A DNA stretch of 64,000 nucleotides, from the NCBI RefSeq assembly GCF_013280595.1, contig NZ_JAAATY010000002.1:310001-374000 (forward strand), read 5' to 3'. Origin of the DNA: Kibdelosporangium persicum. Its GTDB lineage: Bacteria > Actinomycetota > Actinomycetes > Mycobacteriales > Pseudonocardiaceae. Made by a program: the position numbers and the translations under genes. Of this stretch, positions 31,858 through 53,957 are shown one piece after another; position 1 is the first letter of the stretch; each line of letters begins with the position of its first letter. The notes beneath the pieces were generated by a model. The model saw only the letters and a list, made by a program, of their open reading frames with translations, made no database searches and was not told the origin of the DNA.

Positions 31858-31990
31858 CAGAAAAAGAACAGCCCCCGCCCATCCCTAGGGGGTGGGGGCT
31901 CCCCGGCTTCGAGTGTAGTCGTCGAAATGGGGCTTGAGCAGGGAAAACGTCAGCGGGCCGGTGCGAACGGACCGTTCGTACGAAGTTCAC
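31858..31990 (-). other. Operator-promoter-hairpin unit, copy A (inside oriC)
   Basis: Reading on the minus strand: a 21-base near-perfect palindrome at 31961-31981 (core CGAACGG-T-CCGTTCG), TGCTCA (31935-31940), 17 bases, TACACT (31912-31917). Then an 11-bp GC hairpin at 31870-31900 (one G-T pair) and the tract TTCTTTTT (31861-31868). Together these make an operator, a sigma-70-like promoter and a terminator, with room for a transcript of only about 45 bases. Similar units occur at 49.6 and 53.8 kb. Confidence 0.6.
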
Positions 31991-32113
31991 TCCGCTGCGC
32001 CACCGGTCGGGTGATCGTCCGCGGCGCCCGCGTGTCGACGGGGCTGTGACCGGCGGAAAGCCGATCATCTGGGGCGGCCGGCGATGCGGACCGGGCGGAT
32101 CGGATCCGAGACT

Positions 32114-32151
32114 TTTCTGGGGCTGTGGAGAGTTGTCCACAGCCCCAGAAA
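32114..32151. repeat. Perfect 16-bp inverted repeat containing DnaA boxes
   Basis: TTTCTGGGGCTGTGGA (32114-32129) and its exact reverse complement (32136-32151) are separated by GAGTTG. The right arm and spacer form an exact TTGTCCACA box at 32133-32141; the left arm forms a weaker CTCTCCACA box on the minus strand. Confidence 0.85.
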
Positions 32152-32615
32152 CATGCCGGAGGGCCGCCGGGCATCACCCAAGGGGGCGATTCGCGTCACT
32201 TCTCGGCATGCACAGCCCCTGGGCATGAATCGACCCACATCTGGGGATGAGGCTGTGGACAACTGGCGCTTCATGTGGACGGATGAGGGCCGGTCGAGAG
32301 TTGTACACCGCCGATCGGGTCTATCCACCGATCACATCCCGTGGTCTTCCACAGTCCGACGCGGCGCCCGACCAGCGCGGACGCCGGGCATCCACACAAC
32401 CCACAGCCCCTATCTCTGTCACTGCTTTAGCTCTTTGAAGGAATCAACAGAACAAAAACAGGCGCCGTGGATGGTTGAGGACAACCGGCTCGCGACAAAA
32501 GCCGTCGGGCGACGCCCCGGATGACGGGACCGCCCGGCACGCTCTACGGTTGGAGCCTCTGCACCTCGAGGTGAGTCACTCCGGGGATCAACAGGTCGAG
32601 TCTGAAAGGACCTCC

Positions 32616-33752
32616 ATGAAGATCCGCGTCGAGCGCGACGGTCTCGCCGACGCCGTCGCCTGGGTCGCGCGCAGCCTCCCGTCCAGGCCACCCGTCCCCG
32701 TTCTGGGCGGAGTCCTGTTGGACGCCGGTTCGCCGGACTCCGAAGGCGAAGCACTGACCATCTCCGGTTTCGACTACGAGGTGTCGGCCACGGTCGGTGT
32801 CCCGGCGACGATCGCCGACGGCGGCCGCACCCTTGTCTCCGGCCGGTTGCTCGCCGACATCACGAAGGCGTTGCCGAACCAGCCCGTCGAGATCGCCGTC
32901 GACGGCGCCCGTGTCTCGATCACGTGTGGCAGTGCGCGCTTCTCCCTGCCGACCATGCCGGTCGAGGACTACCCCCAGTTGCCGCCGATGCCACCGCACG
33001 CCGGTGAGCTCACCGGTGAGGTGTTCGGTCAGGCCGTCGCCCAGGTCGCCATCGCGGCCGGCCGCGACGACACGCTGCCGATGCTGACGGGTGTCCGTGT
33101 CGAGATCAGCGGTGAGACCTTGACGCTCGTCGCGACCGACCGTTTCCGGTTGGCGATGCGCGAGTTCACGTGGAAGCCGTCCGGTGACGTGGAGGACGCG
33201 GCGGTGCTCGTGCCCGCGCGGACGCTCGCCGACGCGGCCAAGTCCCTCGGCACTGCGGGCAAGACGGTCGAGCTGGCGCTGTCGTCGAGTGACGGTCTGC
33301 TCGGTCTGTCCGGTACCGGCCGTCGGACGACCACCCGGTTGCTCGACGCGGAATTCCCGCGCTACCGCCAGCTGCTGCCGACCGAGCAGACGTCGAACGC
33401 GATCATCGAGGTGTCGCCGCTCGTCGAGGCGATCAAGCGCGTTTCTCTCGTCGCCGAGCGGGGAACCCAGGTCCGGCTCGAGTTCACCGGCGGCGGGCTC
33501 AAGCTGTCGGCCGGTGGTGACGACGAAGGCAGCGCCGAGGAGGAGCTGCCCGTGCAGTTCGACGGCGAACCGGTCACCATCGCCTTCAACCCGGGCTACC
33601 TGCAGGACGGCCTTGGCGCGTTGCACACCGACCGCGCCGAGTTGTCCTTCACCACGCCGAACCGGCCCGCCTTGATCAAGCCGGTCGATGAGAACGGCGA
33701 GGTCGTCGCCGGATACTTGTACCTGCTTATGCCCGTGCGCCTGCCGGGCTGA
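32616..33752 (+). CDS. dnaN: DNA polymerase III beta subunit (sliding clamp)
   Basis: The ring-shaped clamp that gives the replicative polymerase its processivity. With the ATG at 32616, after TGAAAGGA, the product is 378 residues, as expected. It opens [20 protein letters not shown] and contains [20 protein letters not shown] near 155 and [19 protein letters not shown] near 310. It ends in [13 protein letters not shown], the conserved clamp C-terminus. The frame extends to 32475, but the extra 47 codons are not clamp-like. Confidence 0.97.
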
Positions 33753-33771
33753 TCACCAAGGGGAGAACACC

Positions 33772-34686
33772 GTGCAGCTCGGGCTCGTCGGCCTCGGCCG
33801 AATGGGTTTCAACATGCGCGAACGTTTGCGCAAGGGTGGCCACGAAGTGGTCGGCTACGACCGCAACCCGGACGTCAGCGACGCCGAGTCGCTCGCCGAC
33901 CTGGTGGGCAAACTCGACGCGCCGCGTGCGGTCTGGGTCATGGTGCCCGCGGGGGACCCGACGAGGCAGACCGTCGAGGAGCTCGGGTCACTGCTGTCCG
34001 AGGGCGATCTGGTGATCGACGGAGGCAACTCGAAGTTCACCGAGGACCAGCGCAACGCGGCCAAGCTCGCTGAGCGCGGCATCCACTACCTGGACGTCGG
34101 CGTGTCCGGCGGCGTGTGGGGTCTGGAGAACGGCTACGGCCTGATGGTCGGCGGGGCCGAAGAGGACGTCGAGCGGATGCTGCCGATCTTCGACACGCTG
34201 CGGCCGGAGGGCCCGCGCGAGGAAGGCTTCGCGCATGCCGGCCCGATCGGCGCCGGGCACTACGCCAAGATGGTGCACAACGGCATCGAGTACGGGTTGA
34301 TGCAGGCGTACGCCGAAGGCTTCGAACTGCTCGACACCGCCAAGATCGTCGAGAACGTGCCCGCGGTGATCAAGGCGTGGCAACGCGGAACCGTGGTGCG
34401 GTCGTGGTTGCTCGACCTGCTCGTCCGCGCCCTGGACTCCGACCCCGAGTTGGACGACCTGCGCGGATACGTCGAGGACTCCGGTGAAGGCCGGTGGACC
34501 GTGGCCGAAGCGATCGACAAGGCGGTGCCCGCACCGGTCATCTCCGCCGCGTTGTTCGCACGATTCGCTTCCCGGCAAACGGATTCGCCCGCGATGCGGG
34601 CGGTCGCCTCACTGCGCGCGCAGTTCGGCGGGCACGCCGTGCAGAAGGCCGGCCCGAGTTCGGGATCCGGCAGCACGCAGGCGTAG
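33772..34686 (+). CDS. gnd: 6-phosphogluconate dehydrogenase, decarboxylating (short form)
   Basis: Converts 6-phosphogluconate to ribulose-5-phosphate and CO2 in the pentose phosphate pathway. The 304 residues begin QLGLVGLGRMGFNMRERL, the nucleotide-binding fingerprint, and include VIDGGNSKFTED near 80, LDVGVSGGVWGLENGYGLMV near 108 and YAKMVHNGIEYGLMQAYAEG near 165. The length is that of the short Gnd/YqeC type, not the 470-residue form. A GTG start follows GGGGAGAACACC. Placement between dnaN and recF is common in actinomycetes. Confidence 0.93.
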   Translation: MQLGLVGLGRMGFNMRERLRKGGHEVVGYDRNPDVSDAESLADLVGKLDAPRAVWVMVPAGDPTRQTVEELGSLLSEGDLVIDGGNSKFTEDQRNAAKLAERGIHYLDVGVSGGVWGLENGYGLMVGGAEEDVERMLPIFDTLRPEGPREEGFAHAGPIGAGHYAKMVHNGIEYGLMQAYAEGFELLDTAKIVENVPAVIKAWQRGTVVRSWLLDLLVRALDSDPELDDLRGYVEDSGEGRWTVAEAIDKAVPAPVISAALFARFASRQTDSPAMRAVASLRAQFGGHAVQKAGPSSGSGSTQA

Positions 34687-35847
34687 GTGTACGTCCGGCA
34701 GTTGCAGGTGGTCGACTTCCGGTCGTGGAAGCAGGCCGACCTGACCTTCGAACCTGGGCCGTGCGTGCTCGTGGGCGCGAACGGCCAAGGCAAGACCAAC
34801 CTGGTCGAGGCGATCGGGTACGCCGCGACACTCGGCTCGCACCGGGTGGCGACCGACGCGCCGATGATCCGGCACGGTGCCCAGCGGGCGATCGTGCGCA
34901 CGGCGGTCGTCAACGAAGGCCGTGAGCTCACGATCGAACTGGAGATCACGTCGGGCAGGGCGAACCGGGCCCGGGTCAACCGCGGTCCGGTGCCCCGGCC
35001 TCGGGACGTCCTCGGAATTCTGCGCACCGTGTTGTTCGCGCCGGAGGATCTGGCGTTGGTACGCGGCGATCCCGGTGAGCGCCGTCGTTTCCTCGACGAC
35101 CTCCTGGTGCTGCGCGCGCCACGGTACGCCGGTGTCCGCTCGGACTACGAAAGAGTGCTGCGGCAGAGAAACGCGTTGCTGAAGTCGTCCGGTGCCGCGC
35201 GGCGCGCCGGTTCGAAAGGCGACATCGCGACTCTCGACGTGTGGGACGGGCACCTCGCGACACACGGCGGACAACTTCTCGCCGCACGGCTCGATCTCGT
35301 TGCGGATCTCGCGCCGCACGTGATAGCCGCATACGCGGGGGTTGCGGGCAGTGACACGACCCGGTCGGCGGCCGTCGCGTACAAGTCGTCGATCGCCGAC
35401 AACCTCGAACCGGGGTACGGCGTGCCGGGCGGGGACCGTGCCGATCCGGAGGTCGTCGCGGACGCGCTGCTCGCGGCGATGGCGGCAAGCCGGTCACAGG
35501 AGTTGGAGCGCGGGGTCAGCCTGGTCGGACCGCACCGGGACGAGCTCGAACTGATCTTGGGCGAGGCGCCGGCCAAGGGATACGCGAGTCACGGCGAGTC
35601 ATGGTCGTTCGCGTTGGCGCTGCGGCTCGCGGCGTACGAGCTGCTGCGGGGCGAGGGAGCCGAGCCGGTCCTGGTGCTGGACGATGTCTTCGCCGAACTG
35701 GACCAGCGCCGCCGGACGCGACTCGCCGAAGTGGCCGCGGGCGCCGAACAGGTCCTGATCACGGCCGCGGTGGCGGAGGATGTGCCCAGCGAGTTGGCGG
35801 GCACACGGTTCGCCGTCGCGGACGGGGAGGTGCGTCGTGCGGGATGA
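34687..35847 (+). CDS. recF: DNA replication and repair protein RecF
   Basis: An SMC-like ATPase that loads RecA at gaps with RecO and RecR. The 386 residues have Walker [18 protein letters not shown] near 34, the ABC signature region [14 protein letters not shown] near 278, and Walker [18 protein letters not shown] near 325. The GTG start directly follows the gnd stop. The end overlaps dciA by 11 bases. Confidence 0.96.
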
Positions 35848-36523
35848 CGAGCAGCTACCGGACATCACCCCGAGTGGTGTGACCCGTCGCACAACTGGGG
35901 ACAACTCTGTGGATAGTGTGGATAACACGGTGACCCCGAGCGGTACGCAGGGCGCTAACCCGGACATTTCGCCCAGTGAAGGCGCTCGATCGGGGGATGC
36001 CGCGACCGAAGGTGACGGGAGTCTGCGCGGTTCGGACCTCGCCCGCGCCGCGTTGCGGGCGGCGAAGGAAGCGGCCGGAACCAAGCGCAAGCTCCAAGGC
36101 AAGAAGACTCAGGCGCCGCACACCGGCTCCCGGAAGCGTCGGCGCTGGTCAGGAGCGGGTGCCGACAGCCGCGATCCGCAGCGGTTCGGCGCGCTTCTGG
36201 GTAAACTCGCAGCTGAGCGAGGGTGGGCCGACCAGCTGGCGAACGGTGAGGTGTTCGGCCGGTGGACGGCGATCGTGGGCGCCGAGATCGCCGAACACGC
36301 CAAGCCGCTGTCGTTGCGTGACGGTGAGCTGACCGTGCAGGCGTCTTCAACCGCATGGGCGACACAGTTGCGGTTGCTGCAGCGCCAACTGCTGGTGAAG
36401 ATCGCCAAGGGCGTGGGCGATGGCGTGGTCAAACGGCTCAAGGTGCACGGTCCGGCGGCACCGAGCTGGCGGTACGGGCCCAGGCACGTGGCCGGGCGCG
36501 GGCCGCGTGACACGTACGGCTAA
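35837..36523 (+). CDS. dciA: DciA-like helicase-loading protein (DUF721)
   Basis: The DUF721 family includes DciA, which loads the replicative helicase in bacteria without DnaC. With the GTG at 35837 (GGGGAGG six bases upstream) the product is 228 residues. It has a long disordered, Ser/Thr/Arg-rich N-terminal half and a DUF721 domain from about 125: [60 protein letters not shown]. The position between recF and gyrB is the conserved one (Rv0004). Two abutting DnaA boxes lie inside its first 90 bases. Confidence 0.9.
35908..35925 (-). promoter_or_regulatory. Tandem DnaA boxes within dciA
   Basis: TGTGGATAG (35908-35916) is followed without a gap by TGTGGATAA (35917-35925). On the minus strand these read TTATCCACA (perfect) and CTATCCACA (8 of 9). 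A weaker TGGGGACAA lies at 35896-35904. Confidence 0.65.
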
Positions 36524-36634
36524 CCTCAGCGTCTGAACCTGTCTTTCGGCCGGTGCCACCCGGCGAAGTTCACGGTATGACGTCTGTGAGCAATCTAGAG
36601 GTGTCCTAAGGCCGGTTCTGGCGAGCTAGACCAG

Positions 36635-38789
<2,155 letters not shown>

Positions 38790-38820
38790 CGTCCGACCCG
38801 CTTGAAAGGAACAACTAGTC

Positions 38821-42642
<3,822 letters not shown>

Positions 42643-42687
42643 ATCTAGCTCGCGGGACACCGCCGACGAGGAGACGAGGATCAGCTC

Positions 42688-43626: not shown

Positions 43627-43644
43627 CAAAAGGGGATACCGGTT

Positions 43645-43673
43645 TTGGGACCCGGGAAGGCATGCGGTAATCT
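43645..43673 (+). promoter_or_regulatory. Promoter of tRNA-Ile
   Basis: TTGGGA (43645-43650), 17 bases, TAATCT (43668-43673), 15 bases before the tRNA. A good housekeeping promoter match. Confidence 0.65.
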
Positions 43674-43688
43674 TCTCGACGTTCCCAA

Positions 43689-43762
43689 GGGCCCATAGCT
43701 CAGGCGGTTAGAGCGCTTCGCTGATAACGAAGAGGTCGGAGGTTCAAGTCCTCCTGGGCCCA
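43689..43762 (+). tRNA. ileT: tRNA-Ile (GAT)
   Basis: A 74-base cloverleaf: acceptor GGGCCCA / TGGGCCC, D-loop AGCTCAGGCGGTTAGAGC, anticodon loop CTGATAA with GAT at 43723-43725, T-loop GGTTCAAGTC. No CCA is encoded. The position after the gyrA region is conserved in actinobacteria. Confidence 0.97.
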
Positions 43763-43816
43763 CGATCGATTGGGTGACGTGTGTCGGCCTGTCGGCCGAC
43801 CTTCATCGATCGTCAT

Positions 43817-43850
43817 AATTTTGGGGGGCCCAGCCCCCCATGCCCCCCAG
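43817..43850. repeat. Post-tRNA GC hairpin repeat, copy 1
   Basis: AATTTTGGGGGGCC-C-AGCCCCCC followed by ATGCCCCCCAG. GGGGGGC and GCCCCCC can pair. It starts 54 bases after the tRNA-Ile 3' end. An almost identical copy follows tRNA-Ala at the same distance. Likely a transcription end signal or processing hairpin. Confidence 0.6.
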
Positions 43851-43945
43851 GAAAAGCAGGCGCTCCGCGCCCCCGCTCACAGCGTGGGGCGCGTAGTGTG
43901 GGGGAATCTGGGGAAAGCAGAGCATGTGCCTGAAGGAGGCCTGAA

Positions 43946-44083
43946 GTGAAGAAGCTTCTCGGACTGGTGGCTGTTGCCGGTGCCATCTTCCTGGTGGTTC
44001 GCCGTAGCCGTTCCGCGAAGGCCGAGGCCGACCTGTGGCGCGAGGCCACCGCCCCCGCGGGCAACAACGGCGCCGCCAAGTAA
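43946..44083 (+). CDS. DLW-39 family small membrane protein
   Basis: A 45-residue protein: MKKLLGLVAVAGAIFLVVRR, then SRSAKAEADLWREATAPAGN and a short tail. It has one membrane helix and the conserved Asp-Leu-Trp motif that gives the actinobacterial DLW-39 family its name. GAAGGAGG eight bases before the GTG is a strong ribosome site. It lies between tRNA-Ile and tRNA-Ala, its usual place. Function unknown. Confidence 0.85.
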   Translation: MKKLLGLVAVAGAIFLVVRRSRSAKAEADLWREATAPAGNNGAAK

Positions 44084-44135
44084 GACCGACCAACGCCGGT
44101 GGCCACCCCAGGCCACCGGCGACGGTTCCCCACCC

Positions 44136-44208
44136 GGGGACGTAGCTCAATTGGCAGAGCACTGCCTTTGCAAGGCAGGGGTTAGGGGTTCGATTCCCCT
44201 CGTCTCCA
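44136..44208 (+). tRNA. alaT: tRNA-Ala (TGC)
   Basis: A 73-base cloverleaf: acceptor GGGGACG / CGTCTCC with one G-T pair, D-loop AGCTCAATTGGCAGAGC, anticodon TGC at 44169-44171, T-loop GGTTCGATTCC. CCA is not encoded. Confidence 0.97.
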
Positions 44209-44261
44209 CGGCCTCAGGCTTGCCCTGCTCGTTGCTCGCAACTTCGCCGGGTCGGCCGTCC

Positions 44262-44295
44262 AATTTTGGGGGGCCGAGCCCCCCAAGCCCCCCAC
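44262..44295. repeat. Post-tRNA GC hairpin repeat, copy 2
   Basis: AATTTTGGGGGGCC-G-AGCCCCCC followed by AAGCCCCCCAC, 53 bases after tRNA-Ala. It differs from copy 1 by few bases. Confidence 0.6.
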
Positions 44296-44444
44296 GGTGC
44301 GTGCTCCGCACCTTCCAGCGCTGGGGCTTTGCGCGTTGACCAGCGTACCTTCACAGACTTCTGCCCGGGCTTCGCCCGGGCTTTGCTTTTTCTGAGCTTG
44401 GCTTCGGGATCTGATGGGGGATGATCACGTCCTCGCTTGGCACG

Positions 44445-44450
44445 TAGAGT
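44445..44450 (+). promoter_or_regulatory. -10 box of leaderless plsC
   Basis: TAGAGT, then six bases, then the GTG at 44457. Confidence 0.5.
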
Positions 44451-44456
44451 GCGGGT

Positions 44457-45119
44457 GTGCGGGAGCGTGGCGGGTTCTGGGTGGGGCTTTTCGCTTCGGT
44501 GTTCTATCCGTTCACCTGGGCGTTGACGCGCCGGACTGTGCGTGGGATGCAGCACATGCCCGTGCGGGGTGGTGCGCTGTTGGTGCTGAACCACCCGTCG
44601 TACATCGATCCGATCGTCGACGCGGTCTTCGTGCACGAACACGGGCGGGTGCCGAGGTTCTTCACGAAGCACACCCTGTGGAACATCCCGTTGCTCAACC
44701 GGGTGCTGGACGGCGCCGGGCAGATTCCGGTGTTCCGGGGGACGGCCCAAGCCGGTGACAGCCTGCGCGGCGCGCACGATGCGCTGAAGGCAGGCAAGGT
44801 CGTGGTGATCTACCCGGAAGGCACGCTGACGAAGGACTCTGACGGGTGGCCGGTCGACAACCGGACCGGGGTGGCCAGGCTGGCGCTGGCCAATGATGTT
44901 CCGGTGATCCCGGCCGCGCGGTGGGGAACGCGGGAGATCTTCGACAGCAGGCGCAGGCGGTTCCGGCCGTTTCCGCGTAAACCGGTGAACATGGTCGTCG
45001 GCGAGCCGCTGGACCTGAGTGCGTACCGCGGCCGGGAAGTCGACGGCGAGCTGCTGCGTGAAGTCACCGAGGTCATCATGGACCGCGTGCGGGAGCTGTT
45101 GAAGGAACTGCGCGCGTGA
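44457..45119 (+). CDS. plsC: 1-acyl-sn-glycerol-3-phosphate acyltransferase family protein
   Basis: Adds an acyl chain to lysophosphatidate in phospholipid synthesis, at the inner face of the membrane. The 220 residues carry the catalytic LVLNHPSYIDPIVDAVF (NHx4D) near 40, the acceptor motif FRGTAQAGDSLRGAHDAL near 95, and VVIYPEGTLTKDSDGWP near 118. The start fits a leaderless promoter. It overlaps kptA as GTGA. It opens the accessory block after tRNA-Ala, and may be a paralog of a housekeeping enzyme elsewhere. Confidence 0.9.
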   Translation: MRERGGFWVGLFASVFYPFTWALTRRTVRGMQHMPVRGGALLVLNHPSYIDPIVDAVFVHEHGRVPRFFTKHTLWNIPLLNRVLDGAGQIPVFRGTAQAGDSLRGAHDALKAGKVVVIYPEGTLTKDSDGWPVDNRTGVARLALANDVPVIPAARWGTREIFDSRRRRFRPFPRKPVNMVVGEPLDLSAYRGREVDGELLREVTEVIMDRVRELLKELRA

Positions 45120-45640
45120 ACGTCGTGCGGGTGTCGAAGTTCCTGTCCCGGCACCTGCGGCATCGGCCGGCGGACATCGGGCTCACGTTGGACGAGGGCG
45201 GCTGGGTCGACGTCGACGAGCTCCTGGCGGCGTGCGCGCGGCATGGTGTCGTGATCACGCGGGATGAGTTGGAGCTCGTCGTGGCGAGCAATGACAAGCA
45301 ACGTTTCGCCATCCAGGGCACCAAGATTCGGGCGAGTCAGGGTCACTCGGTCGCGGTCGACCTCGGGCTGGTGGCGACTTCACCGCCCGAGTTGCTGTAT
45401 CACGGCACGGTGGCGGCGAACTTGGCGAACATCCGGGCTGAAGGGCTCAAACCCATGGCACGCCGGGATGTTCATCTCTCATCCGATGTGGACACCGCTG
45501 AACGGGTCGGCGCCAGAAGGGGAAAGCCGGTCGTGCTCACCGTGCGGGCGGCGGCTATGCACGAGGAAGGTTATGAGTTCCGGCTTTCCGAGAACGGCGT
45601 GTGGCTCGTGGCCGAGGTTCCGCCGCGATTCCTGCTGTGA
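45116..45640 (+). CDS. kptA: RNA 2'-phosphotransferase (Tpt1/KptA)
   Basis: Moves a 2'-phosphate from RNA to NAD+. In eukaryotes this is the last step of tRNA splicing; bacteria lack that pathway, so the natural substrate is unclear. The 174 residues have SKFLSRHLRHRPADIGL, the core KQRFAIQGTKIRASQGHS near 60, ELLYHGTVAANLANI near 92 and RRDVHLSSD near 117. These contain the Arg-His-Arg-Arg set expected for activity. Coupled to plsC by overlap. The end overlaps the HAD-like gene tail to tail. Confidence 0.92.
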   Translation: MNVVRVSKFLSRHLRHRPADIGLTLDEGGWVDVDELLAACARHGVVITRDELELVVASNDKQRFAIQGTKIRASQGHSVAVDLGLVATSPPELLYHGTVAANLANIRAEGLKPMARRDVHLSSDVDTAERVGARRGKPVVLTVRAAAMHEEGYEFRLSENGVWLVAEVPPRFLL

Positions 45641-46121
45641 CAGCGGTTTCCACGTCCAGCCAGGTCAGGGTCGGCACGACCCAGTCCGGCGGATCAGCTT
45701 TCTGCGGGCCGAACAGGTAGAGGTGCTCGACGGTGTCCCGCAGGTGCCGCAGGACGTCCTGACGGTCGTCGATGAAATGTGTGATGCCAAGCCGCTTGCA
45801 GTGCACGGCTTTCTCCGGTCGTTTGCGGCAGAACCGCGTGTTGGCACGAGAAACACCGGTCGCTGACCAGAAACCATTGTGGTCCAACCACTCCATTGTG
45901 CGCTGCTGGATTCGTTCGCCCGCCTTGGACACGATCCAGACCTTCCCGTCGAACGCTTCGGTCAACCTGGCCAGGGTTTCGAACGCGCCGGGCATGGCGG
46001 GGGTTCGCATGGCCTCGTCGAAGCCACCGGTGAGGAACACCGTGTCGTCACCGCCCGGGTGTGAGGCGCCGTCGTTGATCACTCGGCCGAAGTCCACGCC
46101 GAGTCGTAACTCCTTTCGCAT
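45555..46121 (-). CDS. HAD-like hydrolase, non-canonical
   Basis: With the ATG at 46121 the product is 188 residues; a GTG at 46142 would add seven. It resembles a HAD fold: motif I region LRLGVDFGRVINDG, motif II WIVSKAGERIQQRT near 70, and motif III THFIDDRQDVLRHL near 115. Motif I is DFGRV rather than DxDxT, so the usual acid/base Asp is missing, and activity may differ or be lost. It overlaps kptA by 86 bases at the 3' end. It shares an A/T-rich divergent promoter with the LysR gene. Substrate unknown. Confidence 0.72.
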   Translation of the reverse strand: MRKELRLGVDFGRVINDGASHPGGDDTVFLTGGFDEAMRTPAMPGAFETLARLTEAFDGKVWIVSKAGERIQQRTMEWLDHNGFWSATGVSRANTRFCRKRPEKAVHCKRLGITHFIDDRQDVLRHLRDTVEHLYLFGPQKADPPDWVVPTLTWLDVETAVTAGIAAEPRPRATRRSRKAGTHNLPRA

Positions 46122-46148
46122 GCGCCCAGCGTGCAGCACCACAAACTC

Positions 46149-46189
46149 AATCTGAACTAGCTAAACTCGCGTAGCTATAGTTTCAGATT
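46149..46189. promoter_or_regulatory. Nested inverted repeats, probable LysR operator
   Basis: Outer arms AATCTGAA (46149-46156) and TTCAGATT (46182-46189); inner TAGCTA (46158-46163) and TAGCTA (46172-46177), eight bases apart. A TATAGT -10-like box (46176-46181) lies within, eight bases before the LysR ATG. The layout suits autoregulation by the LysR protein and control of the divergent HAD-like gene. Confidence 0.6.
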
Positions 46190-47035
46190 ATGTTTCCGGC
46201 AGAGTCGCTCCCGGCGTTCCTCGTGTTCGCGGAGCGCCTCAACTTCACCGCGGCCGCGCGGGAGCTGCATATCTCGCAACCCGCGCTGCACGTCAAGGTG
46301 CGGAAGCTGGCCGAGGCGGTCGGCCGTCCGTTGTACGTGCGCCACGGTAAACGGCTTGTGCTGACCGCCGAAGGCGAGGCGTTGGCGCGGTTCGCGCGGG
46401 AACGGGCGGACCAGCTCGACCAGTTCCTCGCCGAGTTGGGCGGTGAGCAGCGCAGAGTCGCGCTCGCGGCTGGCCAGGGCGCGTACCTCTATCTCCTCGG
46501 CGACGTGATCGCGCGCGAGTCCGAACGACTGCGGCTTTTCACCGCGTCACGAGCGCAGACGTTGACGTTGGTGCGTGACGGACGTGCACAGCTCGGCGTC
46601 TCGGTGCTCGACGAACTGCCTGACGACTTGGACACCGTCAAACTCGCGACGTACGACCAAGTGCTGGTCGTACCGCATGACCACCCCCTGGCGAGCCGCG
46701 ACCAGATCCGTCTGCCGGACCTCACGGGGATGCGCATGGTGCTGCCGCATCCCGCGCAGCCGTTGCGGGTGTCGCTCGAACGTCTGCGGTCGGTCGCCGA
46801 CTTCGAATGGGAGGTCGCCGTCGAAGCGGGTGGGTGGCCGCTGATGCTGCACTTCGTCGAACTCGGTGTCGGCGCCGCGGTCGTCAACGGATGTGTGCGC
46901 ACCGACCTGGCGAAGGTGCCGATCGTGGACCTCCCGCCAGTGCCGTACTACGCGATCCACCGGCCGGGTGCGCGGGCCGACCGGCGAGTGGCGCAGTTGC
47001 TGGACCAGATCTGTCACTCGCTTGGTTCAACGTGA
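46190..47035 (+). CDS. LysR-family transcriptional regulator
   Basis: A 281-residue regulator: N-terminal helix-turn-helix LPAFLVFAERLNFTAAAREL and HISQPALHVKVRKLAEAVGR, then a substrate-binding domain (about 85-275) with a typical VVPHDHPLASRDQI segment. The effector is unknown. The ATG lies at the edge of a strong nested inverted repeat in a divergent promoter. Ten bases separate it from the IspD-like gene, so the LysR, IspD-like and FadR genes may be co-transcribed. Confidence 0.88.
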   Translation: MFPAESLPAFLVFAERLNFTAAARELHISQPALHVKVRKLAEAVGRPLYVRHGKRLVLTAEGEALARFARERADQLDQFLAELGGEQRRVALAAGQGAYLYLLGDVIARESERLRLFTASRAQTLTLVRDGRAQLGVSVLDELPDDLDTVKLATYDQVLVVPHDHPLASRDQIRLPDLTGMRMVLPHPAQPLRVSLERLRSVADFEWEVAVEAGGWPLMLHFVELGVGAAVVNGCVRTDLAKVPIVDLPPVPYYAIHRPGARADRRVAQLLDQICHSLGST

Positions 47036-47045
47036 AACAACCGGG

Positions 47046-47738
47046 ATGATCGTGGGTGTGACTCAAGCGGCCGGAGTGGTCTTGGCGGGGGGTTCGGGCA
47101 CACGTGTCGGACGGGAAATCAACAAGGTCTACCTGCCGATAGCCGGACGACCGGTGCTGGCGTGGTCGCTGGAGGCGTTCGCCAGTCACCCCGGCATCGG
47201 GCCGGTCGTACTGGTGACGCGACCGCAGGACGTCGAGCACGTCCAGGAAGTCACCGAAGGCCTGGACGTCGAAGTGGTGTCCGGCGGCAGCACGCGGCAG
47301 GGCTCCGAACTCGCCGCCCTCCGGCAGCTCGCCGGACGCATCAACGCCGGCGAGGTCGACACCGTGCTCATCCATGACGGCGCACGTCCGTTGGTCAGCC
47401 GAGAACTTGTTGCGGCGGTACTGCGGGCTGCGAGACAGTATGGCGGCGCGATCCCCGGGATGGTGAGCGAGGATCTGGCACTGGCGACCGACGAGCACGT
47501 CATCCCGATCTCCGAGGAACTCGTCGCGGTCCAGACACCACAGGGTTTTCTGGCGGCGCCCCTGCTCGCTGCCTACGAGCGGGCGGCTGAGGAGGGGTTC
47601 GTGGGCACGGACACGGCGTCCTGCATCGAGCGGTTCACCGACATCGAGGTGCACTGGGTACCCGGGGAACAACGCAACATCAAGATCACGTTCGGGCACG
47701 ATCTCGTTGTCGCCGAACGGATCCTGGAGTCACGGTGA
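47046..47738 (+). CDS. IspD/TarI-like cytidylyltransferase
   Basis: A 230-residue nucleotidyltransferase of the IspD family, which makes CDP-methylerythritol in isoprenoid synthesis or, in TarI members, CDP-ribitol. It has GVVLAGGSGTRVGREINKVY at the N-terminus and VDTVLIHDGARPLVSRELVA near 103. The first motif has INKVY where IspD usually has PKxF. No ispF partner is present, and the gene is joined to a FadR regulator by a GTGA overlap. A paralog with a different sugar or polyol phosphate is as likely as true IspD. Confidence 0.78.
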   Translation: MIVGVTQAAGVVLAGGSGTRVGREINKVYLPIAGRPVLAWSLEAFASHPGIGPVVLVTRPQDVEHVQEVTEGLDVEVVSGGSTRQGSELAALRQLAGRINAGEVDTVLIHDGARPLVSRELVAAVLRAARQYGGAIPGMVSEDLALATDEHVIPISEELVAVQTPQGFLAAPLLAAYERAAEEGFVGTDTASCIERFTDIEVHWVPGEQRNIKITFGHDLVVAERILESR

Positions 47739-48424
47739 CCCTGCACGCCCATTTGCTCGACTCGCTCGGCCTCGCGCTGACCTCAGGGAGATACCCACCC
47801 GGCACGATTCTGCGGCTGGACGAGCTGACCACTCAGTACGGCGTGTCGAGAACCGTTGGCCGGGAAGCGGTCCGGGTCCTGGAAGCGCTGCGGATGGTGC
47901 GCAGCCGGCCCAAGATCGGGCTGATCGTGCTGCCGACCTCCGAGTGGAACCTCTTCGACCCACAGCTGATCCGGTGGCGTCTCGCGGGTTCCGACCGCCG
48001 GGAACTGCTCAGGCAGATGTCCCAGTTGAGGGCGGCCGTCGAACCGGTCGCCGCGGGATTGGCGGCCGCCAACGCGTCCGACGAACAACGCGGCGAACTG
48101 CTGCGGCTGGCGGACGAGATGCGCAAGCACGCCGTCGCCGGGGATCCGTTGCCCTTCATCGAGGCCGACATCGCGTTCCACCGGCTGATCTTCGTCGCGT
48201 CCGGCAACGACTTGTTCGTGCAGGTCGGCGAAGTGACCGCGGAGGTGTTGCACGGCCGGGCCGAGTTGCAGCTGTTCCCGCCGGACCTGCAGAACACGGC
48301 GTTGGACTGGCACTTGCTGGAGGCGGAGGCCGTCTCGCGGGCGGATACCGCTGAGGCCGAACGGGTTTCGCGGTGCATCGTGCTCGACTCGGCGGCCGAG
48401 GTGGATCGGCTGCTGGACTCCTGA
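47735..48424 (+). CDS. FadR/GntR-family transcriptional regulator
   Basis: A 229-residue regulator. The winged helix (residues 1-70) has LTTQYGVSRTVGREAVRVLE. The C-terminal FCD ligand domain (about 85-220) has PFIEADIAFHRLIFVASGND with the Asp and His that often bind a metal ion. FCD regulators commonly sense small organic acids. Translation is coupled to the IspD-like gene. Confidence 0.88.
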   Translation: MTLHAHLLDSLGLALTSGRYPPGTILRLDELTTQYGVSRTVGREAVRVLEALRMVRSRPKIGLIVLPTSEWNLFDPQLIRWRLAGSDRRELLRQMSQLRAAVEPVAAGLAAANASDEQRGELLRLADEMRKHAVAGDPLPFIEADIAFHRLIFVASGNDLFVQVGEVTAEVLHGRAELQLFPPDLQNTALDWHLLEAEAVSRADTAEAERVSRCIVLDSAAEVDRLLDS

Positions 48425-48458
48425 GCCCTGGCCGCGCTGCCAGGACCCAGGACGCCGC

Positions 48459-48872
48459 TCAGCCGACCGCGGTCGACGCGGTCTGCTTGTTCCTGTTCCA
48501 CAGCCGGGACAACGTCCACGTGCCTGGCCCGAAGAAGGCGATCAGCAGGAACGTCCAGCAGTAGACCGCGGCGAGTTCCCCGCCGTTCTCCAGCGGCCAC
48601 AACGCTTTCGACTGATGGCTGACGAAGTACGCGTAGGCCATCTCACCCGAGCAGATCAGTGCCGCGACCCGGGTGCCGACCCCGAGCATGACGGCGCCGC
48701 CGGCGACGAGTTCGATCAGGCCCGCGTAGAACGACGGCCAGGCCCCGAACTGGACTGTGCGTCCACCCAGCACGCCGAACAACTTGGCGGCGCCGTGGCT
48801 GACGAACAACAACCCGATCACGATCCGGAACAGTGAGAGCAGGTCTTCTCTGCGCCTGAGGATGTTCTCCAT
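48459..48872 (-). CDS. DoxX family membrane protein
   Basis: A 137-residue protein with four membrane helices: LFRIVIGLLFVSHGAAKLFG, FYAGLIELVAGGAVMLGVGT, RVAALICSGEMAYAYFV, and AAVYCWTFLLIAFFGPGTW. The family is linked to redox stress and quinone-associated membrane functions, but this member is uncharacterised. The ATG at 48872 follows AAGGGG seven bases upstream. It is convergent with the FadR gene (35 bases apart) and divergent from the lipoprotein gene. Confidence 0.87.
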   Translation of the reverse strand: MENILRRREDLLSLFRIVIGLLFVSHGAAKLFGVLGGRTVQFGAWPSFYAGLIELVAGGAVMLGVGTRVAALICSGEMAYAYFVSHQSKALWPLENGGELAAVYCWTFLLIAFFGPGTWTLSRLWNRNKQTASTAVG

Positions 48873-48996
48873 CCGATACCCCTTACGTATGCAGGCTTGG
48901 CAAGGTGGTGCGGAGGGGACTACGCCGGGCGGTTGGAGAAGGTTCACCAGATGCCGCGACAGGCCGTTCACAGGACTCTGGTTGACTGGCGCACCT

Positions 48997-49536
48997 ATGA
49001 AGCGACTGACTTCAGCCCTGCTGCTCGCGTGCTGCCTGGCCGGTTGCTCGACCGGCCCTGACGCCGAGCCCGGGCCGCAGCCGACGGAGCGCCCGCGGGT
49101 CACGCCGACGACCACGCAGCCGGAAGGCCCGCCACCGGCGCCGGAACCTGTGGCCGACGGCCCGTGCCCGTACCTGGAAAGCGCCTTCGTCGCCGAAGCC
49201 AACGGCCAGCGCGCCACCAAGGTCCGTATCTCCGCGGACAAGCCGCATCCGGCCTGCTTCTTCTACCGTGCCGACGGCAAGGTCCAGCTGACCGTCCGCG
49301 TGTACGTCGGCACCGCGAAGAACGCGAAGGCACTGGTCGACGAGGCCGCCCCGATCGACAGCTCGAACCCGGCCAACGCGCCGTCAGGCTGGAAGGGCGG
49401 CTCGATCGGCGCCGACAAGGGATCGGTCTACGCGGTCGCCAAGCAAGAAACGGCGGTCATCGTGACGACCAACCAGGCGCAGTCGATCAAAGCCCGCCAA
49501 GTCGCCGAGAAGGCGATCGCCACCCTCGGCCTGTAG
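48997..49536 (+). CDS. Secreted lipoprotein (DUF2020-like)
   Basis: A 179-residue lipoprotein. The signal MKRLTSALLLACCLAGCSTG ends in the lipobox LAGC, so Cys17 should be lipidated and the protein held on the outer face of the membrane. A Pro/Thr-rich linker follows (residues 20-50), then a compact domain with CPYLESAFVAEANGQR and a second conserved Cys in HPACFFYRADGK. Function unknown. A hairpin terminator follows. Confidence 0.85.
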   Translation: MKRLTSALLLACCLAGCSTGPDAEPGPQPTERPRVTPTTTQPEGPPPAPEPVADGPCPYLESAFVAEANGQRATKVRISADKPHPACFFYRADGKVQLTVRVYVGTAKNAKALVDEAAPIDSSNPANAPSGWKGGSIGADKGSVYAVAKQETAVIVTTNQAQSIKARQVAEKAIATLGL

Positions 49537-49559
49537 GCGACTGACCGTCACCACAAATC

Positions 49560-49588
49560 GGGACGCCACCCACCACGTGGCGTCCCGG
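49560..49588 (+). terminator. Terminator of the lipoprotein gene
   Basis: A perfect 11-bp stem CGGGACGCCAC / GTGGCGTCCCG with a 7-base loop, 23 bases after the stop. Confidence 0.8.
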
Positions 49589-49590
49589 AG

Positions 49591-49757
49591 TGAACTTCGT
49601 GCGAACGGTCCGTTCGCACCGGCTCGTGGAGCCAGAACCCCTGTTCACCCCGTTCCCACCGACTAGAATTGATGCCGGGGAGCCCCCACCCCCTTGGGAT
49701 GGGCGGGGGACTGTCCTGGGCGCGGCGAGAAGTTCGTGGGTGGGCGAACAGGGGTTC
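49591..49757 (+). other. Operator-promoter-hairpin unit, copy B
   Basis: A perfect 21-base palindrome at 49600-49620 (10-bp arms around one T), TGTTCA (49642-49647), 16 bases, TAGAAT (49664-49669), then a GC hairpin at about 49682-49709. From GGAGTGAACTTC through the palindrome to CACCGG it is nearly identical to copy A in oriC. The unit also holds GAACCCCTGTTC (49635-49646) and its exact reverse complement (49746-49757). The region lies between two convergent genes. Confidence 0.6.
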
Positions 49758-49763
49758 GGGGCG

Positions 49764-50186
49764 TTACTTCTTCGGCTGGCTGCTGGTCGACTCCGCCGGT
49801 TGCGGCCTGCCGTTGTCCTGCTGCTTCGGTGTCTCGGACGGCTTCTCGTCCTCGGTGCGCGGCTCCGGCGGGACGGCCTCTTCCTGCTGCTGCGCCGCCA
49901 TCGAGCGGACCGCGATGACCGTGCCCGCGGCGGCCACGAGCAAAGCGATCATCCACGGCCAGCGGCGGCGGCGCCGAGGTTGCGCGCCTGCCAGGTGCTG
50001 CGCGGTCACCTTGGCCTTCTTCGCGTTCTTCATCAGGTCCTTGCGGGTGGCCTTGGCCTTGCGTGCCAGCTTGCGGCGGGTTCGGCGGGTCTTGGTCGCG
50101 ACCTCCCCAGCGCTTTCGACCAGCTTGTGCTCCGCCCGGCGGACCGCGTCGACGGCCTTGTCCACCGCCTCTGGGGCCCGAGTCAT
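49764..50186 (-). CDS. Small single-pass membrane protein with basic coiled head
   Basis: A 140-residue protein. Residues 1-70 are strongly basic and helical (KTRRTRRKLARKAKATRKDL), one membrane helix follows (WPWMIALLVAAAGTVIAVRS), and a disordered Pro/Glu/Gln tail ends it. The ATG at 50186 follows GAGGTGAAGG. No family is recognised. The basic cytoplasmic part could bind nucleic acid or acidic lipid, which is a guess. It is divergent from ppiA. Confidence 0.72.
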   Translation of the reverse strand: MTRAPEAVDKAVDAVRRAEHKLVESAGEVATKTRRTRRKLARKAKATRKDLMKNAKKAKVTAQHLAGAQPRRRRRWPWMIALLVAAAGTVIAVRSMAAQQQEEAVPPEPRTEDEKPSETPKQQDNGRPQPAESTSSQPKK

Positions 50187-50291
50187 GTGCCTTCACCTCG
50201 CCAAGTGGGTTCGGGGGTGGTTCGTTGATAGACAGGTTCCCCATCCTGCCCCTTCCGAACCGTGCCCGCTCTGGATGGCACGATTGGAGGC

Positions 50292-50843
50292 GTGGCAGAC
50301 AGCAACGAATCACTCGTCGGGATCAAGGTGACGGCCACCCTGCAGACTACGCTCGGTGACATCCGGATCGCCCTTTTCCCTGATTACGCCCCGAAAACCG
50401 TGAAGAGCTTCGTCGGGCTCGCCGAGGGCACGAAGGAGTATTCGCCGCAGAACGCACAGGGCGGTACATCCGGCCCCTACTACGACGGTTCGATCTTCCA
50501 CCGGGTCATCGACGGTTTCATGATCCAAACCGGTGACCCGACGGGCACCGGGCGCGGCGGGCCCGGTTTCACCGTGCCGGACGAGTTCACCGCGGAGCTC
50601 CAGTTCAACAAGCCGTACCTGCTGGCCATGGCCAACATCAGCCGGCCGAACACGAACGGCTCGCAGTTCTTCATCACGGTCAAACCGACGCCACACCTCA
50701 ACTTCAAGCACACGATCTTCGGCGAGGTCACCGACCAGGAGTCGCGCAACGTCGTGGACGCCATCTCCCGGGTGAGGACCGCGGACGAGGACCGGCCGGT
50801 CGAGGACGTCGTGATCAACCGAGTGGTCATCGAGCGTGGCTGA
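50292..50843 (+). CDS. ppiA: Peptidyl-prolyl cis-trans isomerase, cyclophilin type
   Basis: A cytoplasmic cyclophilin that speeds proline isomerisation. The 183 residues contain YYDGSIFHRVIDGFMIQTGD near 61 with the catalytic Arg, GTGRGGPGFTVPDEF, MANISRPNTNGSQFFITVKP near 113, and TPHLNFKHTIFGEVTD near 134. The conserved PpiA of actinobacterial origins (Rv0009) stands at this place. The GTG at 50292 is very close to its GGAGG, so the exact start is uncertain. Confidence 0.94.
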   Translation: MADSNESLVGIKVTATLQTTLGDIRIALFPDYAPKTVKSFVGLAEGTKEYSPQNAQGGTSGPYYDGSIFHRVIDGFMIQTGDPTGTGRGGPGFTVPDEFTAELQFNKPYLLAMANISRPNTNGSQFFITVKPTPHLNFKHTIFGEVTDQESRNVVDAISRVRTADEDRPVEDVVINRVVIERG

Positions 50844-51762
50844 CCAGGCCTGCGTGCGGCACCCGGACCGGCCGACGGGGTTGCGCTGTGTCCGGTGTGA
50901 ACGGCCTGCCTGTCCCGAGTGCCTGCGGGAGGCCTCGGTCGGGTACCAGTGCGTCGACTGCGTGAACGAGGGCATGCGGACGCAGCGGCGCGCGGTGACG
51001 GTGGCCGGCGCGGAGTTGCACACCAAGCCGCTGGTCGTGCCGATCCTGGTCGCGCTGAACCTGGCGGTGTTCGCGCTGAACGCCTTTCAGGCGCAGAGCG
51101 TCAACAACAACGACCTGTCGTTCTCGTTCGACATCGGCGTGCTCTGGCCGCCCGCGGTGGCGGGCGGTGAGTGGTGGCGGCTGATCACCAACGGCTTCCA
51201 GCACTTCGGGGTGATCCACCTCGTGGTGAACATGGTGTCGCTCTACATCGTCGGCCGTGATCTGGAGATGTTGTTCGGCCGGATCCGGTTCCTCGCGCTC
51301 TACCTGGTGTCGTTGCTCGGCGGCAGCACCGCGGTCTTCCTGTTCGACGCCCAGGAGGTGCTCCGGACCAGCACCGGTCTGGTGCAGGACTACGGGAACA
51401 CGGCCGGTGCGTCGGGCGCGATCTTCGGCCTGATGGGCGCGCTCGCGGTCGCGGTGTTCCGGCTGAAGATGCCGATCGCGCCCGCGCTGGGCATCATCGC
51501 GCTGAACCTGGTGATCACGTTCACGATCCCGAACATCTCGTGGCTCGGGCACATCGGGGGCCTGGTCACCGGTGCCGCCGTGGCGCTCGGGTTCCTCTAC
51601 CCGCCGGCGAAGATCCGGACGAAGGTGCAGATCGCGACCGTGGTCGTGGCACTGGTCGTGCTGGTCGGGCTGGTGTTCGTCCGGGACAGCCAGTTCGTCG
51701 GACCAGCGGTGTGTACCTACGAGAACTCGCAGGTCAGCTGTTTCCGACTGTCAAGTGCGTAG
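50836..51762 (+). CDS. Rhomboid-family intramembrane serine protease
   Basis: Cleaves membrane proteins within the bilayer. The 308 residues begin with a zinc-binding-like head (CVRHPDRPTGLRCVRCERPA, then CPEC and CVDC). About seven membrane helices follow. The catalytic Ser is in NTAGASGAIFGLMGALAV near 197 and the His in SWLGHIGGLVTGAAVALGF near 240. WWRLITNGFQHFGVIHLVVN is the conserved L1 region. It overlaps ppiA by eight bases and the PH-domain gene by 12 bases, tail to tail. Confidence 0.92.
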   Translation: MADQACVRHPDRPTGLRCVRCERPACPECLREASVGYQCVDCVNEGMRTQRRAVTVAGAELHTKPLVVPILVALNLAVFALNAFQAQSVNNNDLSFSFDIGVLWPPAVAGGEWWRLITNGFQHFGVIHLVVNMVSLYIVGRDLEMLFGRIRFLALYLVSLLGGSTAVFLFDAQEVLRTSTGLVQDYGNTAGASGAIFGLMGALAVAVFRLKMPIAPALGIIALNLVITFTIPNISWLGHIGGLVTGAAVALGFLYPPAKIRTKVQIATVVVALVVLVGLVFVRDSQFVGPAVCTYENSQVSCFRLSSA

Positions 51763-52158
51763 TTCGCGCAGCGCGTCGGCGACGTCTTCGGGCGGGACGC
51801 CGAGGTCGAGCCAGCCGAGGACGACCAGGTCGTCCTCGGCGTCGAGCTCGAGCGTGCTCACCTGACGGCCGAGCCTGCGGGTCCGGACCAGCCGGACGTT
51901 GACCTCGGCCCAGGCCCACTGCCGCCTGCTGGCGAACCGGCGCAGGATCAGCCCGTTGCTGTCGGCGGTGAGGCGCGGCCGCGCCAGCGTGCCGTGCAGC
52001 GCCAGCAGGGCCGCGATCAGCGTGGCCAGACCGACGAGCACGCGACCCGGCGTGTCCTCGGTGAGGATGGCCCAGGCCGCGCCACCTGCCGCGGCCACCC
52101 AGCCGACGGCGACCAACACCGGTGGCGTTGACCAGACAAGACGGGCTTTCGGTGACGT
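51751..52158 (-). CDS. PH-domain membrane protein (Rv0010c-like)
   Basis: A 135-residue protein with two membrane helices (VLVAVGWVAAAGGAAWAIL and VLVGLATLIAALLALHGTL), then a PH-like domain with NGLILRRFASRRQWAWAEV and TLELDAEDDLVVLGWLDLG. The GTG at 52158 is preferred: a TTG at 52188 would place the start inside a DnaA box and add ten unconserved residues. The position before crgA matches M. tuberculosis. Function unknown. Confidence 0.78.
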   Translation of the reverse strand, partial: TSPKARLVWSTPPVLVAVGWVAAAGGAAWAILTEDTPGRVLVGLATLIAALLALHGTLARPRLTADSNGLILRRFASRRQWAWAEVNVRLVRTRRLGRQVSTLELDAEDDLVVLGWLDLGVPPEDVADALRELRT

Positions 52159-52178
52159 CACGTGACGCTGCGTCCTAC

Positions 52179-52200
52179 TTATCCACAAGAGTTGTCCACA
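52179..52200 (+). promoter_or_regulatory. Pair of DnaA boxes outside oriC
   Basis: TTATCCACA (52179-52187) and TTGTCCACA (52192-52200), both perfect and in the same direction, four bases apart, in the gap between the PH-domain gene and crgA. Confidence 0.75.
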
Positions 52201-52300
52201 CTGGGGATGAGTTACATCCTTGTGGTTCAGTGACGCTGGGCTGAACGGGTGTAGACCAGCATCCCACGACCGGGTGAACAGCGGGTATCGTGTACCGGGG

Positions 52301-52570
52301 TCAGCGCCACCGCATGGTCATCAGCAGACCACCGATCATCAGGGCGAACCCGATCGCGAAGTTCCAGTTGCCGAGATCGGCCATGAACGGGATGTCCTGC
52401 CCGGCGATGTAGTTGACCACCAGCCAAGCAAGGCCGATCACCATCACACCGAGCATCACCGCGATGTACAGCGGATGCGAAGGGCCGCCCCCACGCACCT
52501 TCACCGGGGTACGGCGATCGCTGGCGGGCGCCGTGTAGACGCTCTTCTTGCGAACCTTGGACTTGGGCAT
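52301..52570 (-). CDS. crgA: Cell division protein CrgA
   Basis: A small actinobacterial divisome protein that contacts FtsZ and other division proteins. The 89 residues start [20 protein letters not shown] and have two membrane helices ([20 protein letters not shown] and [18 protein letters not shown]). The ATG at 52570 follows GCGAGGACACG; the longer frame to 52699 is not conserved. It is divergent from the sortase gene. Confidence 0.95.
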
Positions 52571-52687
52571 CGTGTCCTCGCCTGGCGTTATGCGTGCGTA
52601 TACGGCGGCAAGCGGAGGTCCGCAACTGCCGCCGTGGGAACACGTTAACGTAGTCGAAAAGGCTCGCGAACCACCAGGGGAGTACGA

Positions 52688-53563
52688 GTGGGAACTCATG
52701 AGGGTGACTACGACTCTGGACGCTTGTACGGCGACCTACAGGACGGGCCGCCACAAGCCGGGGATCGGGCGCGCAACGTGGTGCGCAACCTCGGTGAACT
52801 GCTCATCACCGCCGGCATGATCGTGCTGCTCTTCGTGGTCTACGAGCTGTACATCACCGACCTGTTCTCCGCGGGCAAGCAGCGTGAGGCCACCGCGGCG
52901 CTGGATGACGAGTGGCAGCACCAGCCCGGTGCGGACGTCGTGGAAGGCGGCGAACGGACCAACAAGATCGAGCTGGAGGACGGCAAGGGCTTCGCCAAGC
53001 TCTACATCCCCAAGTTCGGCGCGGATTTTCACTTCACAGTGCTCGAGGGCACCAGCGACAAGACGCTGGAGAGCGGACCGGGCCACTACAAGGGCACGGC
53101 GCTGCCAGGCGAGCACGGCAACTTCGCCATCGCGGGCCACCGGGTCGGCAAGGGTGCCCCGTTCAACGACCTCGACCTGCTCAAGTCCTGCGACGCGGTC
53201 GTGATCGAGACCTCGACCAGCTGGTTCACCTACCGGATGCTCCCCGTGGAGTCCGAGGCCAGGAGGTGGGAATCGGTGAAGACCAAGAGCCCGCGCTGCG
53301 AGCGCGTCAACAAGCTCGGCGCCGAGTACAACAAGGTCTACGGACGTGACATCGTCGCCCCGTCGCAGGGCGGTGTCATCTCGCCGGTGCCGTACGCCAC
53401 CCCCGGCACGAAGCCCGGCGTGGCCCTGCTGACCCTGACCACGTGCCACCCGAAGTTCTCCGACGAGCAGCGGCTGATCGTGCACCTCGTGCTGACCGAC
53501 CAGGAGGCCAAGAACCCGGCCGCGCCGAACCAGTTGCCCGCCGCGCTCTCGGAGAACGACTGA
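52688..53563 (+). CDS. srtE: Class E sortase
   Basis: A membrane transpeptidase that attaches surface proteins to the cell wall. The 291 residues have one N-terminal anchor helix ([20 protein letters not shown] near 36) and a C-terminal sortase fold with the catalytic His in [15 protein letters not shown] near 150, Cys in [20 protein letters not shown] near 252, and Arg 8 residues after the Cys. Class E sortases recognise LAxTG-type signals. A GTG start follows AGGGGAG. Coupled to the next small gene by a TGATG overlap. Confidence 0.93.
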
Positions 53564-53721
53564 TGTACGGGTGGATCTGGCGCAAGCTCCCCGGGCCGCT
53601 GGGCGTCCGGATCACCCTGGCCACGGTGCTGGCTCTCGGCGTGATCGCGCTCCTGCTGTTCGTCGTCTTCCCGTGGCTAGAACCGAAGCTGTGGTTCAAC
53701 AACGTGACGACTGAGCAGTGA
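53563..53721 (+). CDS. Small single-pass membrane protein downstream of sortase
   Basis: A 52-residue protein with one membrane helix (ITLATVLALGVIALLLFVVF) after [16 protein letters not shown], and a short outer tail ending WFNNVTTEQ. The ATG overlaps the sortase stop. Its conserved-looking, coupled position suggests a partner of the sortase, but no function is known. Confidence 0.75.
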   Translation: MYGWIWRKLPGPLGVRITLATVLALGVIALLLFVVFPWLEPKLWFNNVTTEQ

Positions 53722-53750
53722 CGGTCGGCGCTCCAGCCAAGCCCTGGACC

Positions 53751-53862
53751 GTACGAACGGTCCGTTCGCAAATCTGGTTGTCCACAACCGCTTAGTAACC
53801 CTCTTCACCAGCCCTTATCGCCGGTAGGCTGGGTGCGGGGTCGCCCCCCGGGAGTGGTGGGG
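53751..53862 (+). other. Operator-promoter-hairpin unit, copy C
   Basis: A palindrome at 53751-53771 with the same CGAACGG-T-CCGTTCG core, then a perfect DnaA box TTGTCCACA at 53778-53786. TCTTCA (53802-53807), 17 bases, and TAGGCT (53825-53830) make a promoter. A GC hairpin region with TCGCCCCCC and TGGGGGCTG follows. The surroundings differ from copies A and B, but the layout is the same. It lies between convergent genes and points into the 3' end of the HAD gene in antisense. Confidence 0.5.
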
Positions 53863-53957
53863 GCTGCGCTGAGGGCGGTTGTGGGTTCGACGGGGTTGGT
53901 GTGCCTTCCTGGGGAGCGGTGCCTCCGAGGTGTCTCGATTCCCTGCGGGTGGGCGAG

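Follow-up and report, generated by a model that had tools for sequence, protein, structure and literature searches.

Multi-copy intergenic hairpin units with promoters at fixed distances from DnaA boxes or a palindrome may be an undescribed small-RNA set in one bacterial family

The window, the whole 64,000-nucleotide stretch of DNA analysed here, raises the question of what a non-coding arrangement that it carries three times, a palindrome followed by a -10 box and a GC-rich hairpin, is for. The three-copy observation, made in a first-pass annotation, is confirmed (Table 1). CGAACGG-N-CCGTTCG is present in all three copies, the 21-base spans given earlier enclosing the exact 15-base sites, and the GC-rich segments follow the promoters as first described. 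The distances in Table 1, counted downstream from the start of the palindrome to the start of the -10 box, agree with the earlier values of about 42 and about 51 bases, for which a different anchor was used. Two details required amendment: the stretch shared by copies A and B with one mismatch is 38 bases long, not 37, and of the -35/-10 pair that had been described the -10 boxes stand but the -35 at a spacing of 16–17 bases does not, no clear -35 hexamer being visible in a logo of 135 non-redundant units. The palindrome stands without a DnaA box in copies A and B and together with one in copy C. Judged from the open reading frames, copy A occupies the dnaA–dnaN gap of the oriC region, and a copy is found in the same place in two other genomes. 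In another intergenic gap of the window, TTATCCACA and TTGTCCACA lie 13 bases apart (52179–52200), with no hairpin unit there.

Table 1. Features of the three copies, in window coordinates
Feature	Position	Strand	Remarks
Copy A palindrome	31964..31978	-	Exact match; 61 bases before -10; TetR-type operator candidate
Copy A -10 box TACACT	31912..31917	-	Read on minus strand
Copy A GC hairpin, class 2, then T-rich run	31868..31911	-	Model match C2:341868-341911 minus, E 0.0013
Copy B palindrome	49602..49616	+	Exact match; 62 bases before -10
Copy B -10 box TAGAAT	49664..49669	+	
Copy B GC hairpin, class 2	49670..49713	+	Model match C2:359670-359713, E 0.002
Copy C palindrome	53754..53768	+	Exact match; 71 bases before -10
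Copy C DnaA box TTGTCCACA	53778..53786	+	Starts 47 bases before -10
Copy C -10 box TAGGCT	53825..53830	+	
Copy C GC hairpin, class 1	53831..53867	+	Model match C2:363831-363867, E 3.9e-7

A 37-position hairpin model covering what follows the -10 box, built from 23 palindrome-bearing units, identifies 47 copies in the 10.35-Mb genome of the window (E up to 0.124; the two weakest of 49 matches at E ≤ 10, with E of about 7–8, were dropped). The exact palindrome occurs 27 times genome-wide, against a chance expectation of ~0.14 under a simple 70% GC model and a count of zero for a reversed-pattern control. When this genome and its relatives were searched at E ≤ 0.01, copies were found in 21 of 60 genomes, the window's own included: all eight genomes of the genus and 13 of the 28 from the rest of the family, with no copy in the other 15 and none in 24 genomes from other families of the order. 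Matching genomes hold from one to at least 110 copies, and the high counts are possibly low estimates because at most 113 candidates were scored per genome. In a class-wide draw of 197 genomes, searched at E ≤ 0.001 with stricter filters, the sole match was the window's genome; 176 of the non-matching genomes in that draw were not itemised. The concern that no further copies might exist is answered by these counts. The unit is real, conserved and non-coding, is present in dozens of copies and is restricted to one bacterial family.

An exact-pattern scan of named genomes returned at least 117 matching stretches. Titles among those listed are Amycolatopsis, Kutzneria, Goodfellowiella, Prauserella, Actinokineospora, Kibdelosporangium, Actinocrispum and Umezawaea, together with one 'Melainabacteria' and two 'Rhodococcus rhodnii'. 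The last two titles are probably mislabelled, because dnaA of the 'Rhodococcus rhodnii' record is 97% identical to that of the window and dnaA of the 'Melainabacteria' record 72% identical over 220 residues. The stretches L149 and L215 (JOAA010000xx), titled Rhodococcus rhodnii NRRL B-16535, are part of a 12.4-Mb genome, probably that of a mislabelled or mixed-up strain. Genome G001 carries ~19 units with one common model score, many of them lying no more than ~0.5 Mb from dnaA; the expansion is specific to that lineage. In the 7.1-Mb genome of another family member, G008, the copies number at least 110 and have GGGGCTCGCCCCCC hairpins; at two of its loci (L083 and L102) a TTATCCACA box lies ~48 bases before TAGGCT.

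Although the model starts after the -10 box, TANNNT precedes the hairpin in 47 of 47 own units, a count that combines the 23 training units, which were chosen with a -10, and 24 of 24 units outside the training set. The same is true of 61 of 62 model-found loci in other genomes. The box is of the extended -10 kind, with a G two bases upstream at 91% in the logo, for which TANNNTNG and the G, C and G runs were already part of the search pattern. Further upstream, the control site most often seen is a 9-mer DnaA box, TTGTCCACA or TTATCCACA, in fixed register: TTRTCCACA with at most one mismatch starts 46–48 bases before the -10 in 37 of 47 own units (30 of these boxes are perfect), in 23 of the 24 own units outside the training set and in 51 of the 62 loci elsewhere, while 10 of the 47 have no box within one mismatch. 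A second box near -66 is seen in five own units and 13 loci of other genomes. Among 184 pattern-gathered units the forward orientation dominates, with 196 boxes versus 32 reverse, and the forward boxes are most frequent at -46 to -48 and at -66/-67. The palindrome, initially regarded as the defining operator, is found within one mismatch in just 23 of 47 own units, all 23 being training units, and is an accessory site of the units. It lies at -70/-71 beside a DnaA box in 14 units and at -60 to -62 without one in nine, two positions ~10 bp, or about one helical turn, apart. As far as the sequence tells, the predicted promoter keeps a fixed register with either the DnaA boxes or the TetR-type palindrome.

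PMC4285127 gives TTGTCCACA as the DnaA box bound with high affinity in M. tuberculosis and S. coelicolor, and TTATCCACA as that in E. coli, and DnaA is therefore the natural candidate for the protein at the TTRTCCACA boxes. A survey of 854 kb (8% of the genome, picked partly for known units) contains 36 perfect boxes, 28 of them intergenic; nine of the 28 are in model-found units, two in one diverged unit and the others in oriC, dnaA or other gaps. The extended -10 GNTANNNT occurs downstream within 90 bases of a perfect box in nine cases, at 46–48 bases (eight cases) or 66 bases (one case), and every such box belongs to a hairpin unit, the units concerned being eight in number. The units account for a large share of the non-oriC DnaA boxes in the family.

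This abundance of boxes invites a reading of the units as sites of DnaA titration or exchange, comparable to datA or DARS, with promoter and hairpin incidental. There are 197 perfect boxes genome-wide compared with 51 for the reversed pattern, and the units are the largest survey class outside other gene promoters and oriC. In three genomes they also look strongly clustered near dnaA, falling in the origin-proximal part of the chromosome, where tRNA loci fall as well. For the tRNA comparison 150 of 186 matches were used, which collapse to 38, 35 and 32 loci. The median relative distances of units and tRNA loci are 0.061 and 0.229 in G001 (p 0.002), 0.239 and 0.152 in G006 (p 0.86) and 0.106 and 0.147 in G060 (p 0.18). 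Origin clustering was rejected as a special trait, and no origin-specific role is claimed, because tRNA loci are origin-proximal too and the units are closer in G001 only. The figures for G006 and G060 thus speak against titration, which would also leave the fixed register to the -10 and the hairpin unexplained, and we consider this reading very improbable.

For the palindrome, a TetR-type regulator had been proposed, and the proposal gains support from a TetR gene (C11:171776-172351; TetR_N 6e-22) that bears the same palindrome, exact, 38 bases before its start. The gene is divergent from a RecQ-like helicase gene and upstream of a P450 gene. Its orthologues are 66–82% identical in G001–G005 and G007, the G005 copy reading through one TAG; G006 has no close orthologue (38%), yet it has nine exact palindromes. 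The exact palindrome precedes the TetR gene in G000, G003, G004, G005 and G007, whose genomes hold 27, 25, 24, 5 and 8 exact palindromes, respectively. In G001 and G002, where the gene is present and there are no exact palindromes, the site before it has two mismatches and reads CCAATGGACCGTTCG, and those G001 units that were examined carry other imperfect repeats instead. Like TetR-family operators, the palindrome has an odd centre and is located before a TetR gene; unlike them, within the units it lies 60–71 bases before the -10 and not over the promoter. The link of the palindrome to a TetR protein is suggestive. The LexA (SOS) box is CGAAC-N4-GTTCG, and the palindrome was rejected as such a box since the spacing in exact sites is 5, not 4. 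At L011, L016 and L021 (palindrome at 1501 or 3186) the sites have no hairpin unit and widen to perfect or near-perfect palindromes of ~30–35 bases with differing outer arms, hairpin- or terminator-like in appearance.

The first-pass annotation allowed that each palindrome might be conserved only as part of a neighboring gene's promoter. Of 46 own units, 31 have the downstream gene on the opposite strand, as do 22 of 28 loci in relatives (genes were called for these context counts by the author's own codon-usage caller), which answers that concern. Convergent gaps hold 19 of the 46 and 16 of the 28, compared to 34 of 245 gaps of at least 120 bp in the 854-kb survey (enrichment p 5e-6 for own units, 1e-7 for relatives). 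This over-representation lends weight to the main rival of an RNA-gene function, namely that the units act in cis as insulators or terminators where convergent genes end, with the hairpin blocking read-through from the neighbors and the short transcript having no role of its own; a hairpin with a T-rich run, such as CTGTCTTTTTTT, in which the oriC copy of G006 ends, points the same way. However, 27 of the 46 own units lie outside convergent gaps, and a terminator would require neither a promoter nor a DnaA box at fixed spacing, nor would its hairpin sequence have to be common to unrelated sites and genera. We regard the insulator reading as unlikely.

Six predicted stem pairs are nearly invariant across the units. 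None of the six has changed on both sides, so that covariation had to be given up as proof of the hairpin, whose structure rests on sequence complementarity because there is no compensatory change. Of seven single folds, just one clearly exceeds its shuffles in stability (best z -2.02). The T content is 0.32 after the hairpin versus 0.19 further on, a modest rise followed by a further G run. Hairpin and T rise fit an intrinsic terminator, which would lie a few tens of bases past the start. Since the C run of the stem might also pair with the 5' GGGG, two competing folds are suggested by the sequence. The earlier idea that the units form a small-RNA-like family, each having a promoter and a hairpin of its own, finds backing at this level, from the -10 box in 47 of 47 own units and from the hairpin model. 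No Rfam family scored over its gathering cut-off, one search giving three matches below it, and membership of a known Rfam family was rejected.

For the oriC copy and for eight loci besides, units sit at matching places in other species, the range of one group extending to Goodfellowiella. Over 13 orthologous pairs, identity is 0.80 in the box, 0.81 in the -10, 0.81 in the hairpin, 0.59 in the spacer and 0.51 and 0.41 in the flanks, these being the best of five offsets, which favors short windows, with the -10 and hairpin required by the search pattern. The 13 come from 24 flank-matched pairs and retain L068–L139, a one-side match; the 11 omitted involve the near-identical record L215 or matches over the unit alone, on one side or at shifted offsets. 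Such conservation bears on whether the units are a non-autonomous dispersed repeat, REP- or MITE-like, whose promoter and boxes would be there by chance. That would suit a copy number both high and uneven (0 to at least 110 per genome) and the many near-identical copies in G001, and the conserved GTAG before the GC hairpin may be likened to the feet of REP elements. Orthologous copies beside the same genes, and functional positions conserved while spacers diverge, argue the other way. Moreover, phage and plasmid records gave no match to the 130 bases of copy C, and the unit pattern occurs zero times in viral_contigs. We think a dispersed repeat decidedly unlikely, and the mobile unit envisaged at first likewise has little support. 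REP/BIME elements (PMC2817692) resemble the units in being many intergenic GC hairpins; the units differ in their fixed upstream DnaA box and -10 and in keeping orthologous positions.

A set of small hairpin-RNA genes is the most likely function. More specifically, we are about evenly persuaded that the units are stand-alone, self-terminating micro-transcription units that would make a hairpin RNA under the control of DnaA boxes or a TetR-type protein. Beyond the layout, spacing, copy number and conservation observed above, we infer where transcription would start and end, which proteins would bind, in which direction they would act and what the RNA would do. The extended -10 promoter would start transcription at or next to the GGGG run, and the RNA, ~35–60 nt long, would fold at once into a C5-6/G5 hairpin that is also its terminator. 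DnaA at the TTRTCCACA boxes would govern initiation, the box centre lying ~55 bases before the start and the second box ~19 further up; in part of the genus a TetR-type protein at CGAACGGNCCGTTCG would replace the second box or stand alone. The recurrence of one hairpin sequence at unrelated sites points to a shared RNA, which would act in trans or be bound by protein. Pairing with the dnaA leader was tried as a trans target and rejected (rank 380 of 750 leaders). It is possible, and offered tentatively, that DnaA switches on dozens of micro-genes for one hairpin RNA whose dose would track DnaA activity and gene copy during replication, with the TetR-type regulator and a DNA-damage-type promoter in a sister class adding further signals.

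Known systems share parts of this layout. DnaA-regulated promoters, with DnaA boxes upstream of genes in, for example, E. coli and B. subtilis, likewise have DnaA-box 9-mers at fixed places upstream of the -10, but the units have no gene after them, a hairpin at the presumed start and dozens of copies. The Qrr RNAs of Vibrio are a multi-copy small-RNA gene family of a handful of copies. Families of this type also combine a stand-alone promoter and terminator hairpin with a near-identical RNA core, whereas the units number 47, are shorter, have DnaA boxes and matched no Rfam family. The actinobacterial 6C RNA, a C-rich hairpin RNA, has a run of six C in a short RNA as the units do; in the units, however, the C run is in the stem rather than the loop, and there is no Rfam match at cut-off. 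No such unit is described in the open PMC literature searched, including the accessible portions of PMC3411110 and PMC3827479. The units may thus be an undescribed small-RNA set tied to the replication machinery. If transcribed, they would rank with the most highly repeated families of small-RNA genes known from any bacterium and, as far as the literature searched shows, be the first under DnaA boxes; they would also tie the replication initiator to RNA regulation in a testable way, in a family that makes many antibiotics.

In the sister class a TGTCRG-like element lies 8 bases before the -10, and the hairpin that follows is of a second kind, GGGGGCCGNAGGCCGCC or similar. This arrangement is present in 5 of 13 G006 box pairs without a model match and at three places in the 854-kb survey. 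The element resembles the RecA-NDp motif of PafBC. That motif is named in PMC6789036. Other box pairs precede genes, one of which encodes an SSB-domain protein. In G000:C2, a sister-class unit (-10 near 156286, plus strand) stands back to back with a class 1 unit (156130-156166, minus strand), ~110 bases apart, and the boxes between them could serve both. A conserved cluster of DnaA-like boxes with another layout and a third CTATCCACAG is found at G000:C2:161559-161588 and at G006 L274.
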